Below are positions 8,817-36,574 of a DNA stretch of 43,204 nt, one piece after another. The DNA is from Hoeflea sp. BAL378. GTDB taxonomy: Bacteria > Pseudomonadota > Alphaproteobacteria > Rhizobiales > Rhizobiaceae. The position numbers and the translations under genes are program-made. How positions within the stretch are numbered: position 1 is the first letter of the stretch; every line of letters begins with the position of its first letter. The stretch covers positions 1-43,204 of the forward strand of contig NZ_JRJG01000071.1 in NCBI RefSeq assembly GCF_000759435.1, written 5' to 3'. The notes beneath the pieces were generated by a model that did not search any database, was not told where the DNA came from, and saw nothing but the letters and a program-made list of their open reading frames with translations.

Positions 8817-8847
8817 AAATACGCATAAGACAGGAGTACCACGAACC

Positions 8848-10122: not shown

Positions 10123-10133
10123 GAGAAAGCGCC

Positions 10134-10475: not shown

Positions 10476-10492
10476 ACAAGGGAAAGAACACC

Positions 10493-10975: not shown

Positions 10976-11010
10976 GCGCAAAGGGAGTGCAATGACTGTC
11001 ACGACACTGT

Positions 11011-11051: not shown

Positions 11052-11084
11052 GCGCCCACGCGGCTCCGGCCCGTGCGGCGCTTC

Positions 11085-14838: not shown

Positions 14839-15435
14839 ACGGGCAGGGCGCCTGGATGGACCTTCGGCGTTGGGCGCACCCGGTCGGGATGCGGGCCTGG
14901 TCGATCGGAATTATGCGAAGTGTGTGACCTGTCAGAAAACCGGCATGTGCCGGATTCGCGCGCCGTGGGACCGCAACAGAATTGAAAAGCTTGCGAGGGT
15001 GGCGGTTGCGATGGCGAGAGCGCCAATTCCTAGAACAATCATTGCTCGAATCCTGGTGACATCATTGTCATCGATGGCCGGGACACTGCCTGACGCAACT
15101 TGTGCGAAACTGGCGCAGGCGATGCGCGGGTTATCCCCAACAACTGATTAACACTAGCCCTGCGGCGTTAACCTTCAGGCAAGGATTAGCACGTAAAAAT
15201 CTGCTCAATCGTCGGATTGTGAAGGCTTCGGTAGTCCGCCCTCGCAAAGGCATGAAGCCGCTTCGCCGTACCGGAGTCAGTCCGGATCCAAAAAATTCCA
15301 TGAGCCAGGCAGCGCTGCGCAATCGTGTCCCGTCATCTCAGCGTGGCGGCCGCGCAAATCGCACGGGGACGATTTCGGTACAAGCCAGGTTTGAATGCAG
15401 ATGCGCGGCCGGGGGCCGCCGATTGGGGTGATGGC
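14839..15435. other. Intergenic region between iron block and che operon
   Basis: These 597 bases hold no convincing gene; the open frames here have non-coding codon usage. The middle part is less GC-rich and contains two TTAAC elements (about 15149-15172). The shared motility motif follows at 15174-15195, so the che promoter is probably here. A 5-bp stem (CCGGC-ATGT-GCCGG, 14940-14953) lacks a T-run on the plus strand. Confidence 0.5.
15174..15195 (+). promoter_or_regulatory. Shared motility motif, copy 1 (upstream of che operon)
   Basis: TTCAGGCAAG, eight bases, CGTA. It matches the consensus TTCRCRCAAG-N8-CSTA derived from four other motility upstream regions, with one mismatch. It lies 240 bases before the chosen start of the chemoreceptor gene, just after a TTAACC element. 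Confidence 0.45.
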
Positions 15436-17016
15436 GTGGGGCAGGTTCAGGCAAGGGTGAGGGATGCGGCGGCGGCGGCCGACGGCCTGCGCGCGCGCCT
15501 TGACCTGACAGCGTTCGACGCCGAGGGCTGCGAACGTCTGCGCACGATCCGCCCGATGATCGAGGCCGAGGCCCGCATTGCGCTGTCCGCCTTCTTCGAA
15601 CGCCTGCAGAACACCCCTGAAATCGCCTCTCTGTTCACCTCGGCCCGCCAGATCGACCGGCTGGAAGAGCTGGAAGTGGCGCACTGGTCGATCCTCGCCG
15701 ACGGCCGTTTCGACGGGCTCTATGTAGACCGCTCGGTCATTCTCGGCGAAGTCCGCCAGCGCATCGGGCTTGACGCGGGCTGGTCGATCGGCGGCCATGC
15801 GCTCGTGCTCGAGCGCGTCATAAGGCGCCTGGTGGAGGAAAGCCGCACCGGCATTTTCAGCCTGTTTTCAAGCCGTTCGGACCACAGGCTGCTGGCCGAT
15901 CGGCTGGTAGATGTCGTCAAGGCGGCGCTGATCGACATCGACATGCAGGTCTCCCATCGCCTGAGCGAACAGTCCAGGAGCCTGATCCGCCAGCGCGAGG
16001 AGGCGGTCGCTGGGGAGCGGGAGCTCGTCGAAACGACGCTTGGCACGGCGCTCGCCCGGCTGGCCGAGGGCGATCTGTCGGTGCGCGTCGAACCGGCCGG
16101 CATCGAGCCGCACCGCGAGGTCGCCGACAATTTCAACCGCGCCGTCAGCCGCCTTGAAGAGCTGGTGACGGGCGCGGCTGTGCGCCTGTCCGACGCCGAA
16201 CGGCTTGCCGCGCGGCTGAGCGACGATCTCGACCAGGTCCGCGCCGACATCGAGAGCCACGGCGCGAGCCTGGGCGGCGAGCACGACACGCTGGCCGCCG
16301 TCGCCGGCCGCATCCGCCTCACCGCCGAAACCGCCCGCAAGGCCGAGACGCTGATTGCCGAGGCCCGCCAGAGCGCCGAGGCCGGCGACAGGGTCGTCGA
16401 GAACGCCATTGACGCGATGGCCGGTGTCGAGAAATCCGCCGAGCAGATCGGCAAGATCATCTCGGTGATCGATGAAATCGCCTTCCAGACCAATCTCCTG
16501 GCGCTCAATGCCGGCATCGAGGCCGCGCGCGCCGGCGACGCCGGCCGCGGCTTCGCCGTCGTCGCCACCGAAGTGCGCGCGCTGGCGCAACGCTCGGCGG
16601 GCGCCGCCAACGAGATCAAGGACCTCGTCTCCGACGCCAAGTCCCATGTCGGGCGCGGCGTCGAACTCGTCGACCGCACCCGCTCCGCCATCTCGGGACT
16701 GGTCGAGCAGGTCGGCAGGATCTCGCAATCGGTGGCGGGTGTCGGCGCGGCGGCGGAAAACGAAGCCGCGCAGCTTGCCGGCACGGCAGCCAGCCTCGGC
16801 CAGACGGCCGGCCTGATCGCCGCCGGCGCCGCCCGAATCTCGGGCGCGGCCGAAACCCAGGCGGATCTGCGCCTGGTGATCACCGAACTGGGCGAGAAGA
16901 TCAGGATGCACCGGCAGGCCCACCATGCCGGCTTTCAAAGCGTGGAGCTGTCGGGTGGCGCACAGCCCGCCGGGCTCGCGCAAGACCGCTATGCGCAGCG
17001 GAGGTTGGCGCGATGA
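15436..17016 (+). CDS. Soluble methyl-accepting chemotaxis protein with degenerate protoglobin-like sensor (IcpA-like)
   Basis: I start at GTG 15436, with GGGGTGAT before it. The frame extends to 15325 but codons there are unlike the gene. The 526-residue product has no membrane helix. Residues 10-150 resemble a globin-coupled sensor (protoglobin) domain: [16 protein letters not shown], then [17 protein letters not shown]. In functional members the corresponding segment reads GEVHARIGL with the heme-ligating His; here it is Arg107. The C-terminal half is a methyl-accepting signalling hairpin with tip [20 protein letters not shown]. It heads the che operon, the position of icpA in Sinorhizobium. 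It should form cytoplasmic arrays with CheA and CheW. Confidence 0.88.
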
Positions 17017-17079
17017 CACGGCTTCTGGGTCACGCCGCGGCAAAGAACACAAGCCCTTTCACGAGCGAGGATATCTGGC

Positions 17080-17379
17080 ATGTCGTCCACCGACGTAGCA
17101 CCTAAAGTACTCAAACTGCCCGAGGTCCTGGACCTCAATGCGGCCAGCAGGCTGCATGAGCAAGTGCTCGCGCACAAGGGCGAAGACATCGATATCGACG
17201 CGACAGACGTGACCCGGGTTGGCGCCCAATGCGTTCAGGTCCTGCTGGCCGCGGCGCTGAGCTGGCGCGCCGAAGACCAGAGCCTGAGGGTCAATCAGGC
17301 CTCCGATGCATTCATTAAAACATTGCAATTGCTGGGAATTTCGGATGAAGCCCTGCTTCCAAAGGAGATGCTGAAATGA
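17080..17379 (+). CDS. cheS: CheS-like STAS-domain protein
   Basis: The 99-residue protein is a single STAS-like domain (VLDLNAASRLHEQVLAHKGEDIDIDATDV, with VTRVGAQCVQVLLAAAL). It occupies the position of cheS between the receptor gene and cheY1 in rhizobial che operons. In Sinorhizobium meliloti, CheS binds CheA and speeds dephosphorylation of the phosphate-sink regulator CheY1. The stop overlaps the cheY1 start (ATGA). The assignment rests on fold and context. Confidence 0.8.
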   Translation: MSSTDVAPKVLKLPEVLDLNAASRLHEQVLAHKGEDIDIDATDVTRVGAQCVQVLLAAALSWRAEDQSLRVNQASDAFIKTLQLLGISDEALLPKEMLK

Positions 17380-17741
17380 AGAAGAAGGTTCTTACGGTCG
17401 ACGACTCGCGGACAATCCGCAACATGTTGCTGGTCACCCTCACCAATGCCGGCTTCGACACGGTGCAGGCGGAAGACGGTATCGAAGGGCTTGAAGTCCT
17501 GGAGGAATCCAATCCGGACGTCATCGTCACCGACATCAACATGCCCCGCCTTGACGGGTTCGGCTTCATCGAAGGCGTGCGCCAGAACGACCGCTTCCGG
17601 GCGATCCCGATCTTGGTGCTGACCACCGAAAGCGACGCCGAGAAGAAGAACCGCGCCCGTGAAGCCGGCGCAACGGGCTGGATCGTCAAACCCTTCGACC
17701 CGTCCAAGCTTATCGCAGCCATTGAGCGTGTAACCGCCTGA
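17376..17741 (+). CDS. cheY1: Chemotaxis response regulator CheY1
   Basis: The 121-residue single receiver domain has the acidic pair Asp9-Asp10, phospho-acceptor Asp53 (VTDINMP), Thr83 and Lys105. By position it is the CheY1 homologue, which in S. meliloti acts as a phosphate sink drawing phosphate from CheA. The motor-binding regulator would be the second CheY encoded after cheB. It is translationally coupled to cheS and precedes cheA by 13 bp. Confidence 0.93.
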   Translation: MKKKVLTVDDSRTIRNMLLVTLTNAGFDTVQAEDGIEGLEVLEESNPDVIVTDINMPRLDGFGFIEGVRQNDRFRAIPILVLTTESDAEKKNRAREAGATGWIVKPFDPSKLIAAIERVTA

Positions 17742-17754
17742 CAGGACCTGTCCC

Positions 17755-20046
17755 ATGGATATGAATGAAATCAAGGACATTTTTTTCCAGGAATGCGAGG
17801 AACAGCTCGCGGAACTGGAATCTGGTCTTCTCCGCATCAATGATGGCGACACCGATCCGGAAACGGTCAATGCGGTGTTTCGCGCCGTGCATTCGATCAA
17901 GGGCGGGGCGGGGGCTTTCGGCCTCGATGACCTCGTCGCCTTCGCCCATGTGTTCGAGACGACCCTTGATTGCGTTCGATCCAACAAGCTACAGACATCG
18001 TCGGAACTGCTCAAGGTGATGCTCAAGTCGGCCGACGTGCTTGCCGACCTCACCGCCGCGTCCCGCGACGGCGGCAGCATCGACAAATCCCGCACCTCGG
18101 TCCTGGTCAAGGAGCTCGACGCCTTCGCCAAGGGCACGCCGTTGCCGGCATCGGCGCCCGAGCCGGTCAAGCAGGAAGCGCCCGCCGAACCGGCGCCGCA
18201 GGCCACCGACGACAGCGGCTTCCAGCCGGTCCCGTTCAGCTTCGACGGCTTCGAGGATGAAGCCGAAGCGGCCGAATTGCCGGACGAGGCCATTGCCGGC
18301 CGGTCGGTGTTCACGGTGCGCTTCAAGCCCCGCTCCGATCTCTACGCCAAGGGCAACGAGGCGGTGCTGCTGCTGCGCGACCTCGCCAGGCTTGGCGATC
18401 TCCAGGTCCGTTGCGACATCGACACGCTGCCGCCCATCGACCAGCTCGATCCGGAAGGCGCCTATTTCTCATGGCTGATCCGGGTCGAGACCGACAAGGA
18501 CGAGGAGGCCGTCCGCCACGTCTTCGAATTCGCCGAATGGGATTGCCTGATCGAGATCACGCCCGGCTCCGATGACGAGGCGTTCTCGGCCCCCACCGCG
18601 GCGGGCGAGGATCAGCCCATGGCGCCGGTGCCGTTCGATCTATCCATGCTCGAGGAAGAGCCGGTCGTCCCCGCCGAGACCGCCGCGGCGGTGGTCGTCC
18701 CCATTGCCGCCGCCCGTCCGGCGGCCGTCGCCGCCGTCGAGGAGGCGCCGCTCGCGCCGCCGAGCCTGCCGCGCGCCGAAAAGGCCCTTGCCGCGGAAGC
18801 GGAGAAGAAGGAAAGCGCGGTTGCCGCGGTTCCCGCCGCGCCGCAGACCATCCGCGTCGACCTCGACCGGGTCGACCGGCTCATCAACCTGGTGGGCGAA
18901 CTGGTCATCAACCAGGCGATGCTCGCGCAAAGCGTGGTCGAGAACGAAACCGGCGGGTCGTCGGCGATCAATCTCGGCCTGGAAGAACTGCAGCAGCTCA
19001 CCCGGGAAATCCAGGACAGCGTGATGGCCATCCGCGCCCAGCCGGTCAAGCCGGTGTTCCAGCGCATGGGCCGCATCGTCCGCGAAATCGCCGACATGAC
19101 CGGCAAGAACGTCCGTCTGGTCACCGAGGGGGAGAACACCGAGGTCGACAAGACCGTCATCGACAAGCTCGCCGAGCCGCTGACGCACATGATCCGCAAC
19201 GCGGTCGACCACGGGCTCGAAACGCCTGAAAAGCGCGCGGCGCTGGGCAAGAACCCCGAAGGCATCCTGCGCCTGACCGCCAAGCACCGTTCCGGCCGCA
19301 TCGTCATCGAGATCGCCGACGACGGCGCCGGCATCAATCGCGAGCGGGTCCGCTCCAAGGCCATCGAGAACGGCCTGATTGCCGCCGATTCCAACCTCAG
19401 CGACGAGGAAATCGACAACCTGATCTTCCACCCGGGCTTCTCCACCGCCGAGAAGCTCTCCGACATCTCCGGTCGCGGCGTCGGCATGGACGTGGTCAAG
19501 CGCTCGATCCAGCAACTGGGCGGCCGCATCTCCATCACCTCCAAGCCGGGCAAGGGCTCGATCTTCACCATGAGCCTGCCGCTCACGCTCGCCGTTCTCG
19601 ACGGCATGGTGGTGACGGTCGCCAACCAGACCCTGGTGGTGCCGCTCACGGCCATCGTCGAGACGCTGCAGCCGGAAAAGCAGGACATTCACGCCTTCGG
19701 CCCGACGCAGCGGCTCATCGCCATCCGCGACACCTTCTGCCCGCTCGTCGATGTCGGCCACATCCTCAATTTCCGCCCCGACCTCGCCAACCCGATCGAC
19801 GGTGTGGCGCTGCTGGTGGAATCGGAAGGCGGCGGCCAGCGCGCGCTCATGGTCGATGCAATCCAGGGCCAGAGGCAGGTCGTCATCAAGAGCCTGGAGG
19901 CCAACTACACCAATGTTCCGGGCATCGCCGCGGCCACCATTCTCGGCGACGGCAGGGTGGCGCTCATCCTCGACGTCGATGCGGTGGTCACCGCCTCGCG
20001 CGGCCATGCGCTGAGCTCCGAAATGACGCTTTCGGCGACAGGGTGA
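17755..20046 (+). CDS. cheA: Chemotaxis histidine kinase CheA
   Basis: The 763-residue kinase shows the standard domain order. P1 carries phospho-acceptor His46 (AVHSIKGGAGAFG). A P2-like region lies around 180-280 (FTVRFKPRSDLYAKG), followed by a long Ala/Pro-rich linker at about 290-360. P3 dimerisation contains DRLINLVGELVINQAML. P4 ATP-binding boxes are HMIRNAVDHGLE, DDGAGIN and ISGRGVGMDVVK. The C-terminal P5 is CheW-like. It phosphorylates both CheY proteins and CheB in response to receptor input. The linker explains why it is longer than enteric CheA. Confidence 0.97.
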   Translation: MDMNEIKDIFFQECEEQLAELESGLLRINDGDTDPETVNAVFRAVHSIKGGAGAFGLDDLVAFAHVFETTLDCVRSNKLQTSSELLKVMLKSADVLADLTAASRDGGSIDKSRTSVLVKELDAFAKGTPLPASAPEPVKQEAPAEPAPQATDDSGFQPVPFSFDGFEDEAEAAELPDEAIAGRSVFTVRFKPRSDLYAKGNEAVLLLRDLARLGDLQVRCDIDTLPPIDQLDPEGAYFSWLIRVETDKDEEAVRHVFEFAEWDCLIEITPGSDDEAFSAPTAAGEDQPMAPVPFDLSMLEEEPVVPAETAAAVVVPIAAARPAAVAAVEEAPLAPPSLPRAEKALAAEAEKKESAVAAVPAAPQTIRVDLDRVDRLINLVGELVINQAMLAQSVVENETGGSSAINLGLEELQQLTREIQDSVMAIRAQPVKPVFQRMGRIVREIADMTGKNVRLVTEGENTEVDKTVIDKLAEPLTHMIRNAVDHGLETPEKRAALGKNPEGILRLTAKHRSGRIVIEIADDGAGINRERVRSKAIENGLIAADSNLSDEEIDNLIFHPGFSTAEKLSDISGRGVGMDVVKRSIQQLGGRISITSKPGKGSIFTMSLPLTLAVLDGMVVTVANQTLVVPLTAIVETLQPEKQDIHAFGPTQRLIAIRDTFCPLVDVGHILNFRPDLANPIDGVALLVESEGGGQRALMVDAIQGQRQVVIKSLEANYTNVPGIAAATILGDGRVALILDVDAVVTASRGHALSSEMTLSATG

Positions 20047-20059
20047 GGGGAGCGGGCTG

Positions 20060-20515
20060 ATGCGGGTATCGGGCAACGACATGTGCGAATTGATTGCATT
20101 CACCATCGGCGACCAGGAGTTCTGCGTCGAAGTGATGGCTGTGCGCGAAATTCGCGGATGGACGCCCGCAACCCCGCTGCCCCATTCCCCCGGCTATGTC
20201 CGCGGCGTGATCAATCTGCGCGGCGTGGTCCTTCCGGTCATGGACATGTCGCAAAGGCTCGGGATGGACAGGACGGATCCCTCCCAGCGCCATGTCATCA
20301 TCGTCATCCAGACAGGCAGCCAGCTTGTCGGCCTTCTGGTGGACTCGGTCTCCGACATCCTCGCCGTTGCCGAAAGCGCCATCCAGCCGGCGCCGGACGT
20401 GAGCCGGGAAATGGGTCGCGACTTCGTCCAGGGCATCATCCCGATCGAAGGCAGAATGGTCTGTCTCATACAACTTAACGCCCTCTTCGGGTCCATTGAA
20501 AGCGAGGCCGCATGA
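20060..20515 (+). CDS. cheW: Chemotaxis coupling protein CheW
   Basis: The 151-residue CheW domain has IAFTIGDQEFCVEVMAVREI, PHSPGYVRGVINLRGVVLPV and GLLVDSVSDIL, all typical. It couples CheA to receptors in the array. GAGGGGAG precedes the ATG at 20060; MCELIAF (residue 8) is an alternative start. The stop overlaps the cheR start. Confidence 0.95.
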   Translation: MRVSGNDMCELIAFTIGDQEFCVEVMAVREIRGWTPATPLPHSPGYVRGVINLRGVVLPVMDMSQRLGMDRTDPSQRHVIIVIQTGSQLVGLLVDSVSDILAVAESAIQPAPDVSREMGRDFVQGIIPIEGRMVCLIQLNALFGSIESEAA

Positions 20516-21393
20516 GCGCCGCAGCCATACTCCAGGCAGGACGACCAGACGATTGCCTCGTCAACGGGGAATATCCCCTGACGCGCCGGGATCTCTCCGA
20601 GATCGCCGCGATGATCTACTCGGATGCGGGCATCGCGCTCAACGAGACCAAGGCATCGCTTGTCTATTCGCGCCTGTCCAAGCGGCTGCGCCAGACCGGC
20701 CTGGCGAGCTTCCGGGACTATTGCGCCCTGGTCGGCTCCTCCGAAGGCGCCGCCGAACGCCGCGAGATGCTGAGCTTCCTGACCACCAATTTCACCCGGT
20801 TCTTCCGCGAAAACCACCATTTCGACCATCTCCGCACCGAGGTTCTGCCGGGCCTGAGCGCCCGCGCCAAGGCCGGCGGCCGGGTCAGGATCTGGTCGGC
20901 GGGCTGCTCGGACGGACAGGAGCCCTATTCGATCGCGCTCACCGTGCTCGGCCTCGTGCCCAACGCGGCAAGCCTGGACATCCGCATTCTCGCCACCGAC
21001 ATCGACCCCAAGATCATCGCCCAGGCCAAGGCAGGGGTCTATGACGGCCAGTCGATCGAAACCGTTGATGCGGCCATGCGCAAGCAATGGTTCACCCAGA
21101 CGCCCGAGAAGCGCTGGCAGGTGGGCGACCAGGTCAAGCAGCTCATCACCTTCCGCGAACTCAACCTGATGGCCCAGTGGCCGTTCCGCGGGCCCTTCGA
21201 CGTGATCTTCTGCCGCAACGTGGTGATCTATTTCGACGAGCCGACCCAGGCCAAGATCTGGGTCCGCTACGCGGATCTGCTGCCGCCGGGCGGGCATCTC
21301 TACATCGGCCATTCCGAGCGCCTCTCCGGCGAGGGCAAGGACCGCTTCGACAACATCGCCATCACCACCTATCGGCTCAAGGGGAGGAACTGA
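20512..21393 (+). CDS. cheR: Chemoreceptor methyltransferase CheR
   Basis: The 293-residue protein has the CheR N-terminal helical domain and a SAM-dependent methyltransferase domain. Conserved segments include [34 protein letters not shown] (SAM loop), ILATDID and [13 protein letters not shown]. It methylates glutamates of chemoreceptors, opposing CheB. The ATGA overlap with cheW supports the start. Confidence 0.96.
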
Positions 21394-21398
21394 CCGTC

Positions 21399-23409: not shown

Positions 23410-23421
23410 GGAGTTCGCCCC

Positions 23422-23814: not shown

Positions 23815-23889
23815 CGCCGCCGCGCCCGAAGGCGCCATGGGACGGTGCTGCCGGACCGCGCCGCGCGGCCTTTCCGGCCGTCGATCACT

Positions 23890-23911
23890 TTCGCGCAAGT
23901 TTCGCCGCCTA
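23890..23911 (+). promoter_or_regulatory. Shared motility motif, copy 2 (upstream of fliF)
   Basis: TTCGCGCAAG, eight bases, CCTA, an exact fit to the consensus. It lies 55 bases before the fliF ATG in the 152-bp cheT-fliF gap, which holds no other feature I can name. Confidence 0.5.
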
Positions 23912-23966
23912 GGGTGAGCGTACCGGTCATCCTGGCCGGCCTGACCCTATTGAGCGCGGATACAGA

Positions 23967-25658
23967 ATGAATCTGTTGAACCAGCTGTCCCTATTCACGA
24001 AGAACCTGGCTGGCCTGGGTCAGGCGAAACTGATGGGACTCGGCCTTGTCGGCGTCCTGTCGGTCATGCTGATCCTCGGCGCCGCCATCTTTCTCAACAA
24101 GCCCACCCGCGAGACGCTCTACATCGGTCTCACGGGCGAGGACGTCAACCAGATCAGCCTGGTGCTTGCCGAAGCCAATATCGATTTCGCCACCGGCTCC
24201 GACGGGACCTCGGTGACGGTGCCGGCCGGCCTCACCGGCCGGGCGCGGATGCTGCTGGCGGAACGCGGGCTGCCCTCGTCCAACACCGCCGGCTACGAGC
24301 TGTTCGACCAGGTGGGATCGCTCGGCCTGACGAGCTTCATGCAGGAAATCACACGGGTGCGCGCGCTCGAGGGCGAGATTGCCCGCACCGTCCAGTCGAT
24401 CAACGGCATCTCGGCGGCGCGGGTTCACATCGTCATGGCCGACCGCGGCAATTTCCGCCGCGGCGACCAGCGCCCCTCGGCCTCGGTGATGGTGCGCACC
24501 GGCAACAATCTGGCGCCGCGCACCGCCGATTCGATCCGCCACCTGGTCGCAGCCTCCGTCCCGGGCCTCAATGTCGATGAAGTCACCGTTCTCGACGCCA
24601 CCGGCAAACTGCTGGCCGCGGGCGACGACTTCTCCAATTCGAGCCTCAACAAGTCGCTCTCGATCGTGCAACTGGTCCAGAACGAGGTCGAGGCCAATAT
24701 CGAAAAGGCGCTGGCGCCGTTCCTGGGCGTCGAGAATTTCCGCGCCAGCGTGAGCGCCGAAGTCAACACCGACAGCCAGCAGATCCAGGAAACCATCTAC
24801 GATCCCGAATCCCGGGTCGAGCGCTCCACCCGCGTGACGCGGGAGAACCAGAAGTCCAACCAGTCGTCCACCGACGCGCCCGCCACCGTTCAGCAGAACA
24901 TTCCCGACCAGCAGCCCGGGGCCGGCGAAGGCGCGGGTCCGCAGTCGAGCGAACTGGCCGAACGCAAGGAAGAGCAGACCAATTTCGAGATCAACTCGAA
25001 GACCGTCTCCACGGTCCGCAACAGCTACAGCGTCGAGGGCCTGTCGATCGCCGTCGTGGTCAACAAGGAGCGGATCAACGCCATGCTCGGCGGCACGCCG
25101 ACGCCCGAACAGACCGCGGCCTACATCGCCGAGCTTGAAAAGGTCGTCGCCACCGCCGCGGGCGTCGATGCCGAGCGGGGCGATCGCGCCACCGTCACCA
25201 TGATGGAATTCCTGGCCAACGAGCTGCTCGTCGACTCGGCGACCCAGCCCGGCTTCGTCGACACGCTGAAAACGCAGCTCGGCACCATCATCAACGCGGT
25301 CGCCTTCATCACCGTGGCCGTGCTGCTCATCCTGTTCGGCTTCCGCCCGCTGATGCGCAACAACCGGATGATCGCCGGCGGCGGAGCCGACGCGGAAGAC
25401 GGCCTGGAAGACGGCCTGGAGCTGCCCGATTTCTCGCCGGCGGCGCTGGGCGGCGCCAACACCATGCCGATGGAAGGCTTCGGCGCTGACTTCGGTTTCG
25501 GCGAAGAGACCGATTCCGAGCTCGAGCTCGAGCAGTCAGGCACCTTCAACCGCCGCGTCAAGGAAGGCCCGGAACGGCGCCTGGCCCGCATGGTCGAGAT
25601 CAACGAAGAGCGGGCGGCCAAGATCCTCCGCAGTTGGGCCTCCAGCGAAGCGGCGTGA
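23967..25658 (+). CDS. fliF: Flagellar MS-ring protein FliF
   Basis: The 563-residue protein has an N-terminal membrane helix (LVGVLSVMLILGAAIFL). Ring-building motifs follow (YIGLTGEDVNQI, RALEGEIARTVQSINGISAARVHI, SASVMVR and VTVLDATGKLL). A second helix (IINAVAFITVAVLLILFGF) lies near residue 440. The cytoplasmic tail that binds FliG ends GPERRLARMVEINEERAAKILRSW. It forms the inner-membrane MS ring housing the export apparatus. It follows the shared motility motif and is probably the first gene of its own unit. Confidence 0.96.
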   Translation: MNLLNQLSLFTKNLAGLGQAKLMGLGLVGVLSVMLILGAAIFLNKPTRETLYIGLTGEDVNQISLVLAEANIDFATGSDGTSVTVPAGLTGRARMLLAERGLPSSNTAGYELFDQVGSLGLTSFMQEITRVRALEGEIARTVQSINGISAARVHIVMADRGNFRRGDQRPSASVMVRTGNNLAPRTADSIRHLVAASVPGLNVDEVTVLDATGKLLAAGDDFSNSSLNKSLSIVQLVQNEVEANIEKALAPFLGVENFRASVSAEVNTDSQQIQETIYDPESRVERSTRVTRENQKSNQSSTDAPATVQQNIPDQQPGAGEGAGPQSSELAERKEEQTNFEINSKTVSTVRNSYSVEGLSIAVVVNKERINAMLGGTPTPEQTAAYIAELEKVVATAAGVDAERGDRATVTMMEFLANELLVDSATQPGFVDTLKTQLGTIINAVAFITVAVLLILFGFRPLMRNNRMIAGGGADAEDGLEDGLELPDFSPAALGGANTMPMEGFGADFGFGEETDSELELEQSGTFNRRVKEGPERRLARMVEINEERAAKILRSWASSEAA

Positions 25659-26022
25659 TCCGCGCCTGCGGCCGGGCCTCGGCAGGGCCCCGCCAGCATT
25701 TCCCGTCATCGGTCAGCAACTTCACGCCGGACGCCTTCGCCAGGGCGGCCGGCGTGCGCGCATCTGATTCGATTAGCTTCAGCTAAAAAGCAATCCGTAA
25801 AGTCCCAGATAATGGTTATATGTTTTTGGGGTCGCCTGGGTCACACTGCAACAATTGATGGATTGATTCGCTGATTCGTCATGCGGGGTAACCATGGCGG
25901 GGGCGTGGTTCCGGGGTGAAGTTCAGGGGCGGCCTTGCGGTCAGACTGAGGCATACCGGAGTCAGGGTTGTTCTTTGGAGGCGCGCATCGAATACGCGCC
26001 AACACCGGCGAAAGGGGACCGA
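25659..26022 (+). promoter_or_regulatory. visN upstream region with palindrome
   Basis: This 364-bp gap has no convincing gene. GC drops sharply at 25760-25870, which is probably the visN promoter. A perfect arm dyad TTAGCT-TC-AGCTAA lies at 25773-25786, and AT-rich GATAATGGTTATATG follows near 25810. The dyad could be an operator for a regulator of the visNR master genes. The shared motility motif is absent, which fits visNR being upstream in the hierarchy. Confidence 0.4.
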
Positions 26023-26694
26023 ATGATTGCGCGCGGTGCGTTTATACAGGATCTCGAATCCAAGGAAAGCTGCGGCCAGATTACAGGCGGCATGGATCTT
26101 GTCTGCGCTTATGCCGGCGCCCGGTGCTATCTTCTGGCCCGCACCGATCTCTTCCTCGACCGGCATCATGATTTCATCGTCACCTCGAACTGGCCCTTCG
26201 ACCTGGTGCGCACCTTTGGCGCGGCGCTGGTCGACGGCCAGGCCCGGACCAGCGAGATCCGCCGCTGTCTGCAGGCCTTCGAGCCGGCCTTTCAGGACAT
26301 CGACCGGTCGGTCGGCCTGCCGGAGGAGTTCTCCCAGCGCGTCTGCCTGATCCCGTACAATGCGGGCCATGCCCGGATGGTCCTGGCTCTGCTGTTCGCC
26401 AAGGACGCCTTCCTGTCGCATGACCGTCTTCGCGATGTCGCGCTCGCGGCGGCCTATTTCACCTCGCGCTTTCCGGAAGTGGTCTCAACCAACGACACGC
26501 TCTCCGATCTGACCGACCGGGAAGTCGAGTGTCTTTCCTGGATCGGCGAAGGCAAGACCAGCGACGAAATCGCGCTGATCATCGGAATCTCACGCAACAC
26601 CGTCAACAATTACATCACCAGTATCATGAACAAAACTGGAGCAAAAACACGCTCAGAAGCGGTTGCCTTCGCTGTGCGGCAGCGAATTATATAA
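26023..26694 (+). CDS. visN: LuxR-type motility master regulator VisN
   Basis: The 223-residue protein has an N-terminal ligand-binding-like region and a C-terminal LuxR/FixJ helix-turn-helix (LTDREVECLSWIGEGKTSDEI, then ISRNTVNNYITSIMNKTGAK). Its position after fliF and directly before a second LuxR gene is that of visN in rhizobia. There VisN and VisR act together to switch on rem and the flagellar genes. AGGGGA precedes the ATG at 26023; an open frame extends to 25894 but looks non-coding. The inducing ligand is unknown. Confidence 0.85.
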   Translation: MIARGAFIQDLESKESCGQITGGMDLVCAYAGARCYLLARTDLFLDRHHDFIVTSNWPFDLVRTFGAALVDGQARTSEIRRCLQAFEPAFQDIDRSVGLPEEFSQRVCLIPYNAGHARMVLALLFAKDAFLSHDRLRDVALAAAYFTSRFPEVVSTNDTLSDLTDREVECLSWIGEGKTSDEIALIIGISRNTVNNYITSIMNKTGAKTRSEAVAFAVRQRII

Positions 26695-26707
26695 CAAGGG
26701 AGCATTC

Positions 26708-27451
26708 ATGATGGCATACGGAACATCACACCTTATTCCATCCGGCCAGGATCGGGTTCAGCATCTCTCCCAGGGCGGAGCGAGCGGAGGGGCGGGCTCC
26801 ACGGCTGATCTGTTCCCCAAGCTCGTCATCATGCAGCGGCTCTGCGCCAGCGAGGGCTTTGCGGTGCTGACCGCCCAGGCGCAGACGCTGCTGACTCCGG
26901 GCCGCCTCGAATGCGGAATACAGAGCCCGGGAAGCGACGCCTTCGTCGACGGGCTGATGCAGGCCCAGGCGGCTTTCCTGCTGTCGCATCTCGCCCTGTC
27001 GCCACGGCCGGTGATTTTCACCCCGCACAAGACGCAGATGCACGACGTCTCGCCCGCGCTGACGGTTCATGTTCCCGACGGTCAGGGAATCGATCTGGCC
27101 CTGCCCGCGCAGTTGGGCGCCATGGGCAACGGCTATGTGATCTTCTTCTCGGTGCGGGCCGCCATGGACAATGACCTGCTCATCGACATGCACCGCAAAT
27201 CGCTCGGCGTCATGCGCGAGAAGCTGAGGCTCGCCTTCGGCGGCGCCTCCCAGTCCGACAAGCTCAACGAGCGGGAAATCGAGTGCCTGCAGCTCGTCGG
27301 CAACGGCATGAAGAGCGAGGCGATCGGCGAGCGGCTCAATCTGTCGGTTCACACCGTCAACGCCTATCTGGGATCCGCCACCACGAAGCTCAATGCCGTC
27401 AACCGGATCCAGGCCATCGCCAAGGCGATCCGCCTCGGCATCATCGCCTGA
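26708..27451 (+). CDS. visR: LuxR-type motility master regulator VisR
   Basis: The 247-residue protein ends in a LuxR helix-turn-helix (LNEREIECLQLVGNGMKSEAI, NLSVHTVNAYLGSATTKLNA). It lies 13 bp after visN with AAGGGAG before the ATG at 26708. It is the expected partner of VisN in a heteromeric activator at the top of the rhizobial flagellar hierarchy. The N-terminal half (LVIMQRLCASEGFAVLTA...) resembles an autoinducer-domain fold. No autoinducer synthase gene is in the window. Confidence 0.85.
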   Translation: MMAYGTSHLIPSGQDRVQHLSQGGASGGAGSTADLFPKLVIMQRLCASEGFAVLTAQAQTLLTPGRLECGIQSPGSDAFVDGLMQAQAAFLLSHLALSPRPVIFTPHKTQMHDVSPALTVHVPDGQGIDLALPAQLGAMGNGYVIFFSVRAAMDNDLLIDMHRKSLGVMREKLRLAFGGASQSDKLNEREIECLQLVGNGMKSEAIGERLNLSVHTVNAYLGSATTKLNAVNRIQAIAKAIRLGIIA

Positions 27452-27587
27452 CCGGAGCCGGCTGACGCTCAGGCGAGTGTCGCGCATCCGGCCGGACCAT
27501 CCGATCGGCGGTGCCGAAGCTTGCTTGGGATGGCGAGCGCCGCATCAGGATGCAGCAGCGCCCTGCACCGGGTCGGCGCAAGTCACC

Positions 27588-29128: not shown

Positions 29129-29140
29129 CGGGGCTCAGAC

Positions 29141-30205: not shown

Positions 30206-30206
30206 G

Positions 30207-30848
30207 TCAGCTGGACTTCTTCCGTTCTTCGCCAATCACTTCGATGATGCGCACCGCAAACTTGGTGTCGTCGGAATCCAGCACCGTGATTTCGCCGCGG
30301 CCGATCAGCTTGCCGTTGACCATGATCTCGACCGGCTCGCCGATCTTCCGGTCGAGCGCGATGGTGGCGCCTTCCTGCAGGTTCATGAGCGAGGAGACCG
30401 CCATCCGGCTCGAGCCGAGGATGATCTGCACGTCGATGGGAATGCCCATCACGAGGTCTAGCCGGCTGGTGGTGCCGGTGGCGCCGGTCTTGACGCCGGC
30501 ATGGGCGGCGGGTTCGGCGGCGAAATCATGGCCGAGTCCGGCATCGGCGCCGAAATCGCCGCCAAAGGCCGCGCCGCCGAGGCCCGGCATGCCGAGATCC
30601 GGCGCATCGCCGATGTTGAATGGGTCGTTGACGTCGCCCGCGGCGTCGCCGTCGGCGAAATCCGCGCCAAAATCAGAACCGAAGGCCGCTGAGCCACCCA
30701 TGCCATCCACGCTTTCATTCGTGACAACCGGTTTCTCGCCGGCGTCTTTCTTCAATACTCCGCGAAGCTCATCGATGGCCCCGTCAATCGCGCCGTCGCC
30801 TTGCGCCATCGGATCGGCGTCACCATCAAATGCGTTTTCGCCCGCCAT
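30207..30848 (-). CDS. fliN: Flagellar motor switch protein FliN
   Basis: The 213-residue protein has a C-terminal SpoA domain ([52 protein letters not shown]), as in all FliN. The first 125 residues are a low-complexity Asp/Gly/Ala-rich extension ([18 protein letters not shown]), longer than in enteric FliN. It completes the C-ring with FliM and FliG and helps dock export cargo. It starts 61 bp after fliM. Confidence 0.94.
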
Positions 30849-30909
30849 ATGCCCTTATCCCGTTTCAAGCTTGCCCGGAGCCTGCCTCGACGCGCCCCGG
30901 GGTCCATCT

Positions 30910-31863
30910 TCATGCGAAATCTGTTTTCCAGTTTTCGTCCGGTCCCGCCGGCCCTTCGACCTTGACCATGTAGCGTGTTCCGGCCCGGCCGAGCGCGCAG
31001 GTGTAGAGCGGCTTGCCGTTGGCGCTGAGCGTCACGGCGATGTCGCCCGTGTCGGCGAAGGCGATCAGGTCGCCCGCCTGCAGACGGCTGATCTCGCCCA
31101 GCGGAAGCGGCGCCAGCGCCACCGCCGCCTGCAGGCTGATCTGCGACTGGGACACCCGGTCGCTCAGCCGTTCGGTCCAGTCGAGCGCGCTGGCGCTCGC
31201 CTTCTTGCCCTGCGCGGGCGCGGTGATTTTCGCCTTGAGCAGGAGCGCCTGGGGCAGGATCAGGATCAGCGGCGCGACGACGGCGCCGAAGCCGATCTCC
31301 AGCGTCATCGCCGCGGCGTGGAAATTCGGGAACGGGTCATCGATCTCTTCGCGCAGGTCGAGCTGCGGCCTGGCCACGCTGGCCTTGGCCTTCGGGTCGG
31401 CCGACACCAGCGTGCGCAGGCTGTCGTTGAGCTGCTCGAACACCACCAGCGACATGTCGAGCTCGATTCCCGAAAGCGGCCGCGCCACGATGTCGAGCTG
31501 GTCGGGGTCGTTGCCGCCGAGCAGGCATTCGACCAGGCCGATGATCAGCTTGGTCCCGCACAGGCTGGCGATCTCCTTCGACCAGCCGGCGATGGTGGTT
31601 TCGCAATAGACCGCGTCGGTGATCAGCTCCGAGAGCAGTTCGCGCCGCCGGCCCTGCCGGATCGCGCCCGGACGGGCGTCGATCTCGACGCCGGTCGCCT
31701 TTTCGAACGCCGTCGCCAGCATCGGGCCGAGCGCCTGCATCAGGGTCTGGCATTTGGCCTCGATCGTTGCGGCGCTGCCTTTCGCTCCGGTCATCAGATC
31801 GAGCAGTTGCGGATCGAACTGGGCCGGGCCTTGCGGGCTTTCGGGGGCTGCTTCTGCGCTCAT
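30910..31863 (-). CDS. fliM: Flagellar motor switch protein FliM
   Basis: The 317-residue protein fits the divergent rhizobial FliM. A central CheC-like domain (WSKEIASLCGTKLIIGLVECLLGG) and a C-terminal SpoA domain (AAVALAPLPLGEISRLQAGDLI) are visible. The N-terminal CheY-binding peptide is not obviously conserved. It lies 4 bp after motA and upstream of fliN. FliM receives the CheY2-P signal in this system. Confidence 0.9.
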   Translation of the reverse strand: MSAEAAPESPQGPAQFDPQLLDLMTGAKGSAATIEAKCQTLMQALGPMLATAFEKATGVEIDARPGAIRQGRRRELLSELITDAVYCETTIAGWSKEIASLCGTKLIIGLVECLLGGNDPDQLDIVARPLSGIELDMSLVVFEQLNDSLRTLVSADPKAKASVARPQLDLREEIDDPFPNFHAAAMTLEIGFGAVVAPLILILPQALLLKAKITAPAQGKKASASALDWTERLSDRVSQSQISLQAAVALAPLPLGEISRLQAGDLIAFADTGDIAVTLSANGKPLYTCALGRAGTRYMVKVEGPAGPDENWKTDFA

Positions 31864-31867
31864 TGTC

Positions 31868-32746
31868 TCACGCCGCCTTTGCGTCGCCGCCGCCGCCGGG
31901 GTTCATCATTTCCTGCTCCACCGCGTCGATGGAGGGACGCTCGTAGGACGAGATCGTCTTGCGTCCGTGCTCGAGCGCCACCTGCGGCACGGAGCCGTTC
32001 ATGTAGGCGAGCAGGGTCTGCTTGACGATGGTGTAGAGCCGGTTCTGCTTGGTGCGAACGATCTTGATGTTGGTGGCGATCGGTCCGATCAGGCAGTAGG
32101 ACAGGAAGATGCCGAGCATGGTTCCCACCAGCGCCGCGCCGATCAGGCCGCCGAGGATGGCAGGGGATTCGTTGATGGCCGCCATGGCCTTGATGACGCC
32201 GAGAACGGCGGCGATGATGCCGATCGCCGGAAAGGCGTCGCCCATCGTGCTCACCGCGTTGTAGGCCTTGAGACTGTCGGTCGAGATGGTCTCGATTTCC
32301 TCGTCCATCAGCGCCTCGATTTCATGCGGGCGGGCGTTGCCGATGATGATCAGCCGCACATAGTCGCAGATGAAGGAGGTCAGCTCCTTGTTCTTGAGAA
32401 CAGTGGGGGCGGACTGGAACAGCTCCGATTCCTCGGGGTTGTCGATATGGCTTTCAATCTCGTTGCGGCTCTTGGTCCTGAGGTCGCGCATCAGCGAATA
32501 GAGAATGCTCAGCGTGTCCAGATAGTCGCGTTCCTTGGGGACCTTGTTCTTGAACGCCTCGCCCAGCGCCTTGAGCGTGTCCTTGATGGTCTTGACCGGG
32601 TTGGCCATGATGAAGCCGCCGACGCCCGCGCCGCCGATGATCATCAGCTCGAACGGCTGGTTGAGCACCTCCAGGTGTCCACCCATAGCCATGAAGCCGC
32701 CGAGGATACACCCGAGGGTAACCACAAAGCCGATAACCATATTCAT
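31868..32746 (-). CDS. motA: Flagellar motor stator protein MotA
   Basis: The 292-residue protein has four membrane helices. The N-terminal [24 protein letters not shown], a large cytoplasmic loop with charged residues, and [19 protein letters not shown] are all typical of MotA. It forms the proton-driven stator with MotB; motB is not in the window, as in rhizobia where motB-motC lie further along. First gene of the minus-strand switch operon, 39 bp downstream of a shared-motif copy. Confidence 0.95.
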
Positions 32747-32785
32747 GATGAACCACCGCGCGAATTGGACATGCTGTTTACTGCG

Positions 32786-32807
32786 TACGGCGTGAGCCTT
32801 GTGTGAA
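32786..32807 (-). promoter_or_regulatory. Shared motility motif, copy 3 (upstream of motA, minus strand)
   Basis: Read on the minus strand: TTCACACAAG, eight bases, CGTA. It fits the consensus TTCRCRCAAG-N8-CSTA exactly and ends 39 bases before the motA start. Confidence 0.45.
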
Positions 32808-32852
32808 GCTGAATCTCTCCGTCTAATTAACGGTTTGTCCCCGCCCTACAGC

Positions 32853-32874
32853 TTCGCGCAAGCAAGATGGCCTA
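32853..32874 (+). promoter_or_regulatory. Shared motility motif, copy 4 (upstream of DUF1217 gene and flgF)
   Basis: TTCGCGCAAG, eight bases, CCTA on the plus strand. The ten-base left half is identical to the fliF copy. It lies 98 bases before the GTG start of the DUF1217 gene, divergent from the motA copy 46 bases away. Confidence 0.5.
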
Positions 32875-32972
32875 ATCCGGGGCAAGCATGCGGGCGACTG
32901 CGCCCTGTCGCGACAAATGCGCCATGGCGGGCTTGAGCGATGCGCCCTGACGGATCGGAAAGGGTAACCCCG

Positions 32973-33755
32973 GTGACGACCACTTACACCAGCTACAATC
33001 TGATTGCGCGGGATTTGCCGCGCTCGCTCGACCGGATCGCCAGTCAGCCCGTGGTTGCGCGCGAGAGCGAATATTACCTTTCGCGGATCTCCGAGATCAA
33101 ATCCGTCGACGAGTTCATGGCCGACACGCGCCTGTTCAACTACGCGATGAAGGCCCACGGGCTCGAGGACATGAGCTATGCCAAGGCGTTCATGCGCAAG
33201 GTCCTGACCGAAGGCGTCGACAACGAGGATGCCTTCGCCAACAAGCTCGCCGATTCCAAGTACAAGCAATTCGCCGAGACCTACAATTTCGCCCGCCATG
33301 GCGAAACCGCGACGATCTTCACCAAGGCGCAGCAGGGCACGGTCGACAAGTACCACCGCCTGTCGCTGGAGCAGGAGGCCGGCGAAGACAACACCGGCGT
33401 GCGCCTGGCGCTCTATTTCCAGCGCAACGCGCCCGAGATCACCTCGGCCTACGGCATCCTTGCCGACACCGCGCTCTACCAGGTCGTGCAGACCGCGCTC
33501 GGCTTCTCCTCCGAGCTCGCCGGAGCGGACATCGACCGCCAGGCCGACATGATCAATGCGCGCATCGATATCGAGGATTTCAAGGATCCCGAAAAGCTCG
33601 ACAGCTTCATGCAACGCTTCACGGCGCTGTGGGAGATCGAAAACCCCTCCTTCAGTTCCGTCGATTCGAGCCTGTTGCTGAGCTCCTCGTCGGGCTTCGG
33701 CATCTCTCCGGAGCTGATGCTGACCATCAACAATCTCAAACTCGGAGGTCACTGA
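32973..33755 (+). CDS. DUF1217-type flagellar-region protein
   Basis: The 260-residue protein starts at GTG 32973 (MTTTYTSYNLIARDLPRSLDRI) after AAGGGTAA; an upstream ATG at 32940 lacks a ribosome site. It is soluble, mostly helical and rich in aromatic residues. Proteins of this kind (DUF1217), encoded beside flgF in rhizobial and Brucella-type clusters, have no settled function. The gene is coupled to flgF by a stop/start overlap, implying a rod- or assembly-related role. Confidence 0.75.
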   Translation: MTTTYTSYNLIARDLPRSLDRIASQPVVARESEYYLSRISEIKSVDEFMADTRLFNYAMKAHGLEDMSYAKAFMRKVLTEGVDNEDAFANKLADSKYKQFAETYNFARHGETATIFTKAQQGTVDKYHRLSLEQEAGEDNTGVRLALYFQRNAPEITSAYGILADTALYQVVQTALGFSSELAGADIDRQADMINARIDIEDFKDPEKLDSFMQRFTALWEIENPSFSSVDSSLLLSSSSGFGISPELMLTINNLKLGGH

Positions 33756-34480
33756 TGCAGGGTTCGCTCTATGTCGCCATTTCATCGCAGATCGCGCTTG
33801 AGCGTCGCCTGACAACGCTGGCCGACAATGTCGCCAATGCCAACACCACCGGCTTCCGCGCCACCGAGGTCAAGTTCAACGAAGTGCTTGCCGACACCGG
33901 CGTGGCCGATGTCTCCTTCGTCGACCAGGGCCAGGACTTCCTCAAGACCTCCAATGGCGGCCTGAACGCCACCGGCAACCAGCTCGATTTCGCCATTCGC
34001 GGCGAGGCCTGGTTCATGATCGAGACGCCCACCGGCAACATGCTCACCCGCGACGGCCGTTTCTCGCTGACCGAGACCGGGCAACTGGTCAATATCAACG
34101 GCTATCCGGTCCTGGATCCCGGCGAGGCGCCGATCCAGCTCGATCCGGGCGGCCCGCCGCCGAAGGTCGGGCGCGACGGCGGCCTCGAGCAGGACGGCGT
34201 CCGGCTTGGCGCCATCGGCCTGTTCGAGGCGGACCTGTCGCAGGGGTTCCAGCGCAAGGCCGCGCTCGGAATCGTGCCGACGGTTCCGCCCGAACCTCTG
34301 CTCGACGCCAACAGCGCCGGCCTGCTGCAGGGCTATCTCGAGGAATCCAACGTCAATCCGGTCTCCGAGATGAGCCATCTGATCATGCTCTCGCGCGCGT
34401 TCGAAAGCGCATCCGCGATGATGAAGGCGACCGAGGACATCTTCAAGGAAGCGATCCAGACGCTGGGCAGCGGCAGATGA
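33755..34480 (+). CDS. flgF: Flagellar proximal rod protein FlgF
   Basis: The 241-residue protein has the rod/hook N-terminal motif (RRLTTLADNVANANTTGFRA). The FlgF/G core includes LDFAIRGEAWFMIETPTGNMLTRDGRF. The C-terminal coiled segment is YLEESNVNPVSEMSHLIMLSRAFE. The start overlaps the upstream stop (TGATG) with GGAGG before it. It is exported without cleavage and assembles in the periplasmic rod. Confidence 0.94.
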   Translation: MQGSLYVAISSQIALERRLTTLADNVANANTTGFRATEVKFNEVLADTGVADVSFVDQGQDFLKTSNGGLNATGNQLDFAIRGEAWFMIETPTGNMLTRDGRFSLTETGQLVNINGYPVLDPGEAPIQLDPGGPPPKVGRDGGLEQDGVRLGAIGLFEADLSQGFQRKAALGIVPTVPPEPLLDANSAGLLQGYLEESNVNPVSEMSHLIMLSRAFESASAMMKATEDIFKEAIQTLGSGR

Positions 34481-34535
34481 GTGCCGTGCAGGTGGGTCTG
34501 GGCGCTGACCGCTCATTTGTGCCGGAGGCCTTGCG

Positions 34536-35915
34536 ATGAGCGGCCGCCAGGGCCTTGCCAGGCTCGCCGACAGCGTGCGCGAATTTTCCAGGCCCCACGG
34601 CGGCTGCGACATCTCCGGCACCGTCACCTCCGTCTCCCCGGGACGCTGCGTCATTTCCGGCCTGTCGCGCCATGTCCGCATCGGCGAGTTCCTGGGCTTC
34701 CGCCATGGCGATGCGGTCAAGCTGGCCGAGGTGGTGAGCCTCGGCCCCGACGAGGTCGTCGCCTGTCCGGTCGACGGTGCGTCTCAGGCCGGCATCGGCG
34801 AGCGCGTCTGGCGCCGCGGCGCGTTCCGCATCTCCCCGGACGCGGGATGGTGCGGGCGCACCATCAATTCGCTCGGCGAACCGGTCGACGGGCTCGGCCC
34901 GCTGCCGCAGGGGCCCGTGGCCCGCACCGTCACCGGCGCGCCGCCCGCCTCGATGCTGCGCCAGAGGGTCAGCGCGCCGCTGCGCACCGGCATCCGCGTG
35001 GTCGATGTCTTCGCGCCGATCTGCCAGGGCCAGCGGCTCGGGATCTTCGCCGGATCGGGCGTCGGCAAGTCGACGCTGCTGTCGATGTTCGCCAAGGCCT
35101 CCGATTTCGACCGCGCGGTGGTCGCCCTGGTCGGCGAGCGCGGCCGCGAGGTGCGCGAATTCATCGAGGACACGCTCGGCCCGAACATGAAGAAGACCGT
35201 CGCGGTGGTCGCCACCAGCGACGAAAGCCCGATGCAGCGCAAGCTCGCGCCGCTGACGGCCATGGCCGTTGCCGAGCATTTCCGCGACACCGGCGAAAAC
35301 GTGCTGCTGATCGTCGACAGCCTGACGCGCTTCGCCCATGCGCTGCGCGAGATCGGCATGGCGGCGGGGGAGCCACCGGTGGCCCGCGGCTATCCGGCCT
35401 CGGTGTTCACCGCCTTGCCCGGCCTGCTCGAACGCGCCGGACCTGGCCCGGAAGGGTCGGGGGCGATCACGGCCATCGTCTCGATCCTGGTCGACGGCGA
35501 CAATCACAACGACCCGGTCGCCGATTCCGCCCGCGGCATTCTCGACGGCCATCTCGTGCTCGACCGCGCGCTTGCCGACGAGGGCCGCTATCCGCCGGTC
35601 AATCCGCTGACCTCGATCTCGCGGCTGGCCCGCAAGGCCTGGCGCGGCGACGAGGAAAAGCTGGTGATGCGGCTCAAGGCGCTGATCCACCGCTACGAGG
35701 AAACGCGCGATCTCCGGCTGATCGGCGGCTACCGGGCCGGATCGGACGCCGAACTCGACATGGCCATAAAGCAGGCGCCGGTGATTTACGAGATCCTGCG
35801 CCAGACCCCCGAACAACCGCCCAGCGTCGACGCCTTCGCCGAGCTGGCCGAAGCAATGAAGGCCGCGGCCGGCATCCCCTCCGCGCCGCCCCCCAAGGAA
35901 AGGGCCAGACCGTGA
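34536..35915 (+). CDS. fliI: Flagellar export ATPase FliI
   Basis: The 459-residue ATPase is of F1-beta type. Walker A GSGVGKST lies near residue 175, with GERGREVREF, VLLIVDSLTRFAHALREI (Walker B), GEPPVARGYPASVFTALP and the typical C-terminal helical domain. It works with FlhA and FlhB to unfold and deliver export substrates. GGAGG precedes the ATG at 34536. The stop overlaps the next start (GTGA). Confidence 0.96.
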   Translation: MSGRQGLARLADSVREFSRPHGGCDISGTVTSVSPGRCVISGLSRHVRIGEFLGFRHGDAVKLAEVVSLGPDEVVACPVDGASQAGIGERVWRRGAFRISPDAGWCGRTINSLGEPVDGLGPLPQGPVARTVTGAPPASMLRQRVSAPLRTGIRVVDVFAPICQGQRLGIFAGSGVGKSTLLSMFAKASDFDRAVVALVGERGREVREFIEDTLGPNMKKTVAVVATSDESPMQRKLAPLTAMAVAEHFRDTGENVLLIVDSLTRFAHALREIGMAAGEPPVARGYPASVFTALPGLLERAGPGPEGSGAITAIVSILVDGDNHNDPVADSARGILDGHLVLDRALADEGRYPPVNPLTSISRLARKAWRGDEEKLVMRLKALIHRYEETRDLRLIGGYRAGSDAELDMAIKQAPVIYEILRQTPEQPPSVDAFAELAEAMKAAAGIPSAPPPKERARP

Positions 35916-36475
35916 CCGACACGATCGATTTTGACGATGCTGATGACGACGCGCCCGGTCCCGTCGCCAAGCCGAAACGCACGGGCGATCGCGTCTTCGC
36001 GGTCTCCGGCTTCCTGCTCGCCACGGCGGCGGCGTTCTTTCCCTGGTATGTCTTCTTCAATCAGGAAAGCTTCGGCATCGCTCCCATGGGCTACAACGAC
36101 ACCAGGGACCTGCCCGAGACCCCCGGCCGCGCCGTGGTCAATGTCTCGCCGCTCGCAATCCCCGATGAGAAGGATGGATCGGCGCCGGCCTCGGCCTTCG
36201 ACCCGATCGTCACCGCCACCGTCCCCAATGCCGAAGACCGGGCGGCCGGCGAGTCCGCTTCGCTGAGCGAGGATCCGAACCAGTCCTTCCCCGGCAAGCC
36301 GCAGTACCGGTTGCTGCACGTCGCCAACGGCCGCGCCCTCATCGAGGACCGGTCGGGCATGTACATCGTCCGCATCGGCTCGGTCCTGCCGGACAATTCG
36401 CGCCTCGCCACGCTCGAGCAGCGCAATGGCCAGTGGGTCATCGTCACCTCGAACGGCGACGTGATCCAGAACTGA
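35912..36475 (+). CDS. Single-pass membrane protein of unknown function between fliI and flgB
   Basis: The 187-residue protein starts at GTG 35912, coupled to fliI by a 4-base overlap. An acidic N-terminus (TIDFDDADDD) is followed by one membrane helix around residues 28-47 (VFAVSGFLLATAAAFFPWYV). A disordered linker comes next, then a C-terminal beta-rich domain (LHVANGRALIEDRSGMYIVR, then NGQWVIVTSNGDVIQ) expected in the periplasm. The topology suggests an envelope-anchored assembly or regulatory factor of the flagellum. The family is not recognised. Confidence 0.75.
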   Translation: MTDTIDFDDADDDAPGPVAKPKRTGDRVFAVSGFLLATAAAFFPWYVFFNQESFGIAPMGYNDTRDLPETPGRAVVNVSPLAIPDEKDGSAPASAFDPIVTATVPNAEDRAAGESASLSEDPNQSFPGKPQYRLLHVANGRALIEDRSGMYIVRIGSVLPDNSRLATLEQRNGQWVIVTSNGDVIQN

Positions 36476-36520
36476 GACCGGTCGCCGGCGTGATCCTGCG
36501 GCAATCGGCTCCTCGCAAGG

Positions 36521-36542
36521 CACGCACAAGATTGACCGCCTA
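36521..36542 (+). promoter_or_regulatory. Shared motility motif, copy 5 (upstream of flgB)
   Basis: CACGCACAAG, eight bases, CCTA. The CAAG-N8-CCTA core is exact; two of the first ten bases differ from the consensus. It ends 32 bases before the flgB ATG. Confidence 0.45.
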
Positions 36543-36574
36543 GTTTCCGGACTTGCACAGGACGGAGACATGTC

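Follow-up and report, generated by a model that had tools for sequence, protein, structure and literature searches.

The stretch analysed here, hereafter the window, comprises the 43,204 nucleotides of contig NZ_JRJG01000071.1 of Hoeflea sp. BAL378 (Rhizobiaceae; assembly GCF_000759435.1). Pfam names in it a series of chemotaxis genes (MCP, CheY, CheA, CheW, CheR, CheB, CheY, and CheD) and of flagellar genes (fliF, flhB, fliG, FliMN-type, motA, DUF1217, FlgEFG-type (flgF), fliI, flgB, flgI, and fliP), whose order presumably resembles that of the rhizobial motility cluster; its MotA is 85-94% identical to Hoeflea sequences. Four of the flagellar units are preceded by a 22-bp double box followed by a -10-like hexamer, and we consider this element to be, with high probability, the operator-promoter of class II flagellar genes recognised by the regulator Rem. 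A sequence-only reading of the window had described one motif in five copies before motility genes. All five strings are present at the places and on the strands given, and each has eight bases separating CAAG from C[CG]TA, but only the fliF, motA, DUF1217/flgF, and flgB copies form a single element, whereas the copy before the che operon is a separately conserved look-alike. The four sites and their genes are as follows (window coordinates; E values from the genome scan described below, bits from scoring with the box profile).

23884..23905, + strand: predicted Rem-type double box before fliF, half-sites ATCACTTTCGC and GCAAGTTTCGC (E 0.0027, 30.3 bits)
23910..23915, + strand: -10-like hexamer TAGGGT of the putative fliF promoter (transcription start predicted)
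23967..25658, + strand: fliF (Pfam YscJ_FliF and FliF C-terminal)
31868..32746, - strand: motA (Pfam), then FliMN-type genes, fliG, and flhB on the same strand
32782..32787, - strand: -10-like hexamer TACGCA of the putative motA promoter, a weak match to TAGNNT
32792..32813, - strand: predicted Rem-type double box before motA, half-sites TTCAGCTTCAC and ACAAGGCTCAC (E 0.033, 26.2 bits)
32847..32868, + strand: predicted Rem-type double box before DUF1217/flgF, divergent from the motA box (E 0.0059, 29.9 bits)
32873..32878, + strand: -10-like hexamer TAATCC of the putative DUF1217/flgF promoter
32940..33755, + strand: DUF1217 gene (Pfam; its start may be the GTG at 32973), then flgF and fliI
36515..36536, + strand: predicted Rem-type double box before flgB, half-sites GCAAGGCACGC and ACAAGATTGAC (E 0.029, 28.5 bits)
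36541..36546, + strand: -10-like hexamer TAGTTT of the putative flgB promoter
36575..36952, + strand: flgB (Pfam Flg_bb_rod)

The element consists of two 11-bp direct repeats, GC[AC]AGCYTCRC and GCAAGNYTSGC, and, after four bases, the -10-like hexamer TAGNNT. Numbered so that the first T of TTC is 1 and a position 0 exists, its consensus reads G-5 C-4 [CA]-3 A-2 G-1 C0 Y1 T2 C3 R4 C5 and G6 C7 A8 A9 G10 N11 Y12 W13 S14 G15 C16, with positions 14-16 weak, then four bases and T21 A22 G23 N N T26. The 22-bp strings delineated earlier are real, but the motif is longer: it takes in the A at -2 and the 11-bp repeat, and the downstream TA of the strings is part of TAGNNT. The A at -2 is found in all 37 sites of a set from relatives and the own genome, although it was absent from the search pattern. 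Letter identity within these 37 sites reaches 0.526 at a shift of 11 (permutation P 0.0008), while every other shift between 2 and 16 gives 0.12-0.34; the selection left -2 and -1 free, and the repeat played no part in it. In a larger set of 102 sites the identity is 48.5% (P 0.0014), but there A at -2 and AG at 9-10 were part of the search pattern. The repeat is plain at flhA (CTTCGC-GCAAG-CTTC) and at fliF (CTTTCGC-GCAAG-TTTCGC). An inverted repeat was also considered and dropped because its pairing is limited to CTT...AAG; the site is a direct repeat rather than a palindrome. When sites are picked by positions -5 to 10 alone (162 after removal of redundancy), 65% have TA at position 21, and no other position from 11 to 39 has it in more than 7%. 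CAAG and the hexamer are ten bases apart, and the box lies a median of 60 bases from the start codon (middle half 54-71, usually 50-75 bp).

The pho box of PhoB and the boxes of the OmpR/PhoB family in general are made of two direct repeats with an 11-bp pitch, which replace the -35 element and leave about 10 bp between the repeat core and the -10. The element before the flagellar units has both properties: the direct repeat with its 11-bp pitch and, judged by sequence geometry with a predicted transcription start, the place at -35 with a fixed spacing to the -10. It shares this layout with the pho box and differs from it in letters; Rem, in addition, is reported to be aspartate-less and active without phosphorylation (PMC9812332). 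The fixed spacing between the upstream block and the hexamer would also suit a promoter that needs no activator and is recognised by an alternative sigma factor, but this explanation is very unlikely, given that the block is a 22-bp double repeat with an 11-bp pitch, wider than a -35 element. Moreover, a search of the own genome (an assembly of 281 contigs) for FliA gave three weaker matches, none over the curated cut-off, and the sigma-54 form GG-N10-GC is absent from the logo of 90 sites; a FliA promoter and a sigma-54 form were rejected on these grounds. The CtrA box (TTAA-N7-TTAA) likewise controls alphaproteobacterial flagellar genes, but its letters are unrelated to those of the Rem-type box, and it was rejected from the logo and from a scan that found no full CtrA box at the class II boxes in the stretches scanned, two before rem, and one before a flagellin. 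The earlier statement that the motif fits none of the sigma-28, sigma-54, and CtrA forms was thus correct. The two CtrA boxes before rem in the own genome (C46; L031 1243-1343) are perfect; in Sinorhizobium meliloti, a CtrA motif is mentioned before rem, yet CtrA did not bind rem there, and depleting CtrA left rem unchanged (PMC4433202).

Conservation was assessed in upstream regions anchored by tblastn in 22 genomes, plus 80 further loci. A profile made from 52 sites of other genes exceeds the null (99th percentile, 4.3 bits; highest resampled null 16.9) in 83 of 99 distinct motA upstreams, and a profile likewise made from other genes does so in 65 of 66 flgB upstreams, the exception being L072. 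The fliF upstreams of relatives carry the box as well. Twelve of the 16 motA misses have a MotA identity of 40-46% and come mostly from other orders, and one (L082) belongs to a genome without a Rem match (G005). It should be borne in mind that related genomes are not independent, and these counts cannot serve as probabilities.

For the genome-wide scan we used a profile, R1, of 86 of the 90 non-redundant relatives' sites (L081, L068, L168, and one L179 site were left out), with the own genome and the Hoeflea loci excluded. At E<=10 it gives 11 matches in the 5.48-Mb own genome, and the first seven are all flagellar: flhA, fliF, flgE, DUF1217/flgF, a long DUF1217 gene, flgB, and motA (E 0.0016-0.033; 26.2-30.3 bits with the box profile). 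The box therefore precedes the class II units flhA, fliF, flgE, DUF1217/flgF, flgB, and motA, whose class II membership is taken from other rhizobia (PMC8429497). Among the lower matches, C65:32047 aligns to model positions 2-23 alone, without the -10; C151:1951 is a weaker copy before an open reading frame (ORF) and then motB; C151:5219 sits within an ORF; and C6:85044 (L240 near 2050), box-like and scoring 23.7 bits, precedes a gene with several PAS domains and may be a further target or chance. The scan scores no more than 150 of its 2216 first-look candidates, so that a weak site like that of che may be missed. In the same genus, R1 gives 4-8 matches at E<=0.1 in 18 of 18 genomes, many of them in divergent pairs with a separation of 60-70 bases, an arrangement also seen at motA/DUF1217 (the genes at these matches are unannotated). 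As for the long DUF1217 gene (C92; L032 4905-7205, minus strand), it encodes a 766-amino-acid protein with four DUF1217-matching stretches and has a strong box upstream (27.2 bits); it is likely a class II motility gene of unknown function.

The sequence-only reading had also argued that such a recurrence was unlikely by chance, and here the outcome depends on how strictly the motif is defined. There are 14 instances of the exact core CRCAAGN8CSTA in the genome; the window contains four of these, where 0.08 would be expected from the rate in the rest of the genome (Poisson P 1.6e-6), and the three exact matches to the 22-mer genome-wide are all within the window. Allowing up to one mismatch to the 22-mer gives 13 places in the own genome. 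Seven adjoin flagellar or che genes (the window contains four, and three are on other contigs, before flgE, flhA, and the long DUF1217 gene), and the other six are unannotated; the flgB copy differs by two mismatches. The argument fails for loosened patterns: the one-mismatch core occurs ten times in the window against a shuffle mean of 5.5, with 9 of 100 shuffles reaching ten, and genome-wide the motif is rarer than its reversed controls, both as a loosened core (640 versus 1517) and as a loosened 22-mer (86 versus 157). Since loosened patterns show no enrichment, it is the strict copies, their places, and their conservation that carry the evidence. This lack of enrichment is what could be said for a chance resemblance picked by eye, an explanation that we regard as extremely improbable, as the relatives' profile recovers flagellar genes, the box is conserved over many genera, and no score of at least 14 bits was found in 3 Mb of order-3 random sequence (one strand). 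By-eye resemblance is refuted for the four sites by the relatives' profile scan and the cross-validation, which do not cover the che copy.

The rem gene directly precedes flgE, and a box sits between the two; Rem matches solved OmpR/PhoB-type regulators, and its helix EXHXSKLRK, which we take to be the DNA-reading one, is invariant in 17 aligned proteins. Across 121 genomes of the order, R1 matches at E<=0.01 are found in 17 of 26 genomes with rem (a group that includes partial or weak Rem matches at E<=1e-20) and in 4 of 95 without it (Fisher P 6e-11), or in 16 of 25 and 4 of 95 when the own genome is removed (P 2e-10). Genomes with rem account for 41 matches, 32 of which have motA or rem no more than 30 kb away. 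The known control of class II flagellar genes in the Rhizobiales by Rem, FtcR, and LafR offers the same picture, with a member of the same regulator family beside flgE and the same targets: Rem is reported to activate class II genes (PMC8429497; PMC9812332) and to be held in check by MirA (PMC12632262; PMC9731437). The sequence-only reading had left open a Rem site, a VisNR site, or a variant promoter; owing to the tandem 11-bp repeats, the fixed distance to TAGNNT, and the presence with rem, the Rem site and the promoter are supported together, and the VisNR site is disfavoured.

From these data we infer a mechanism in which two Rem DNA-binding domains would bind head to tail to the half-sites GC[AC]AGCYTCRC and GCAAGNYTSGC. 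The box would occupy the place of the -35 element, ending four bases before TAGNNT, and Rem would recruit a sigma-70-type RNA polymerase and activate transcription much as PhoB does at pho promoters. As most flagellar assembly units own a copy, the box would mark the class II regulon, and the flagellins, and probably che, would fall outside the Rem regulon.

Two LuxR-type genes next to fliF, which we named from their presumed correspondence in place within the cluster, provide another candidate for the binding protein.

25894..27451, + strand: visN and visR, LuxR-type (Pfam GerE), with no box before either

Both belong to the cluster, and VisN/VisR are reported to act above flagellar genes in rhizobia (PMC8429497), so that the box might be the site of this pair. 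We judge this very unlikely. VisN was detected in 5 of 121 genomes (E<=1e-12), and 13 of the 17 genomes with both rem and the box are among those without it, although a diverged VisN could escape detection; the box is found before motA of two Bradyrhizobium (L192, L198), and a review describes B. diazoefficiens as lacking visNR and having a rem homologue (PMC8429497). A direct repeat, rather than a palindrome, also speaks against VisN/VisR, and the VisNR site was rejected on the distribution of VisN. The absence of a site before visN and before the flagellin genes, in the stretches read, agrees with what had been noted earlier.

Several observations nevertheless weigh against recognition of the box by Rem. 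Nine of the 26 genomes with rem have no R1 match at E<=0.01, and four genomes without rem have one, where about one would be expected (P 0.016). Three of these four matches are near none of ten query flagellar and che proteins, and the fourth (G049) adjoins a gene for an OmpR-type regulator that is 29% like Rem. No good box was found in the own-genome upstream of rem itself, in contrast with FtcR, which is reported to bind its own promoter (PMC9456535). FtcR of Brucella melitensis binds before fliF, and its published chromatin immunoprecipitation (ChIP) motif, TGTGGGCA, differs from the box and is absent from the consensus (PMC9456535). Three motA loci (L177, L181, and L197) fail box detection, and several motA sites lack TA at 21. 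The G049 match, together with an architecture that suits the whole OmpR/PhoB family, could mean that an OmpR-type regulator other than Rem binds the box; this seems to us highly improbable, as, of this family, it is Rem that has its gene within the regulon, and the box tracks rem across genomes, in a co-occurrence computed for Rem alone.

Regarding earlier work, limited literature searches found no operator consensus for Rem or LafR, and an earlier published one may exist; no flagellar transcription starts were found in the available parts of two start-site papers (PMC3616915, PMC10469942). Control of class II genes by Rem is already known, which, together with the possible earlier consensus, limits the novelty of the predicted operator element.

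The copy before the che operon was set apart from the box set after alignment of 17 same-genus upstreams, the own one included.

15167..15201, + strand: che-operon element, a look-alike of the box with its own conserved sequence (20.1 bits; class uncertain)

Its score of 20.1 bits compares with 26.2-30.3 at the seven good sites, and it is not among the 11 matches of the genome scan. Among 17 other same-genus loci, 16 keep the copy, GTTAACCTTCAGGCAAGGATTAGCACGTAAAAATC, in this form, about 156-176 bp upstream, and in the 17th the contig begins too late to show it; the longer conserved form is mostly GTTAACCTTC-NNN-CAAGGATTA...CGTAAAAAT. In G023 it reads TTAACCTTCAAGCAAGGAATTAACCAT, reminiscent of CtrA half-sites, and in S. 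meliloti mcpE is one of the genes for which the start-site paper lists CtrA motifs (PMC3616915). The stretches examined of G069 and G105 yielded no che operon. The che copy may have a mixed role, and it is best either removed from the set or regarded as doubtful.

A weaker site, directed away from the che operon, has a short ORF downstream.

14932..15042, - strand: 36-amino-acid ORF MIVLGIGALAIATATLASFSILLRSHGARIRHMPVF, downstream of the weaker box and conserved in the genus
15083-15088, - strand: -10-like hexamer CAGTGT of the weaker box
15093..15114, - strand: weaker predicted Rem-type double box (17.7-17.9 bits)

Over 17 same-genus loci, this box scores 15.7-27.1 bits. The ORF has a constant length of 36 codons in all 17 same-genus loci with upstream sequence, with a ratio of nonsynonymous to synonymous polymorphism (pN/pS) of 0.40; in a sample of 81 genomes from the family, two other genera show weak matches to it. 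Its product is a probable membrane protein and a candidate new motility microprotein.

Taken together, these elements could amount to a single Rem operator of fixed geometry, acting as the class II flagellar switch of much of the Hyphomicrobiales independently of VisNR, through a regulator that needs no phosphorylation, and marking new motility genes such as those of the long DUF1217 protein and the 36-amino-acid probable membrane protein; for this joint proposal, we put the chances slightly below even. If it holds, the flagellar operator would be something other than the published FtcR motif, and the box flags this disagreement with the ChIP motif of a Rem orthologue. The link between Rem and class II genes, already known from genetics, would become a readable DNA code, from which the class II regulon, genes of unknown function included, could be predicted in many related genomes, and the box would be an exact probe for how an aspartate-less OmpR-type regulator activates transcription.

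Finally, the region adjoining the che operon (8698-14838 of the window) contains in a row two imelysin-type peptidase M75 genes, a ferritin-like gene, a di-haem oxidoreductase gene, and a DUF1513 gene, which looks like an iron-handling unit.

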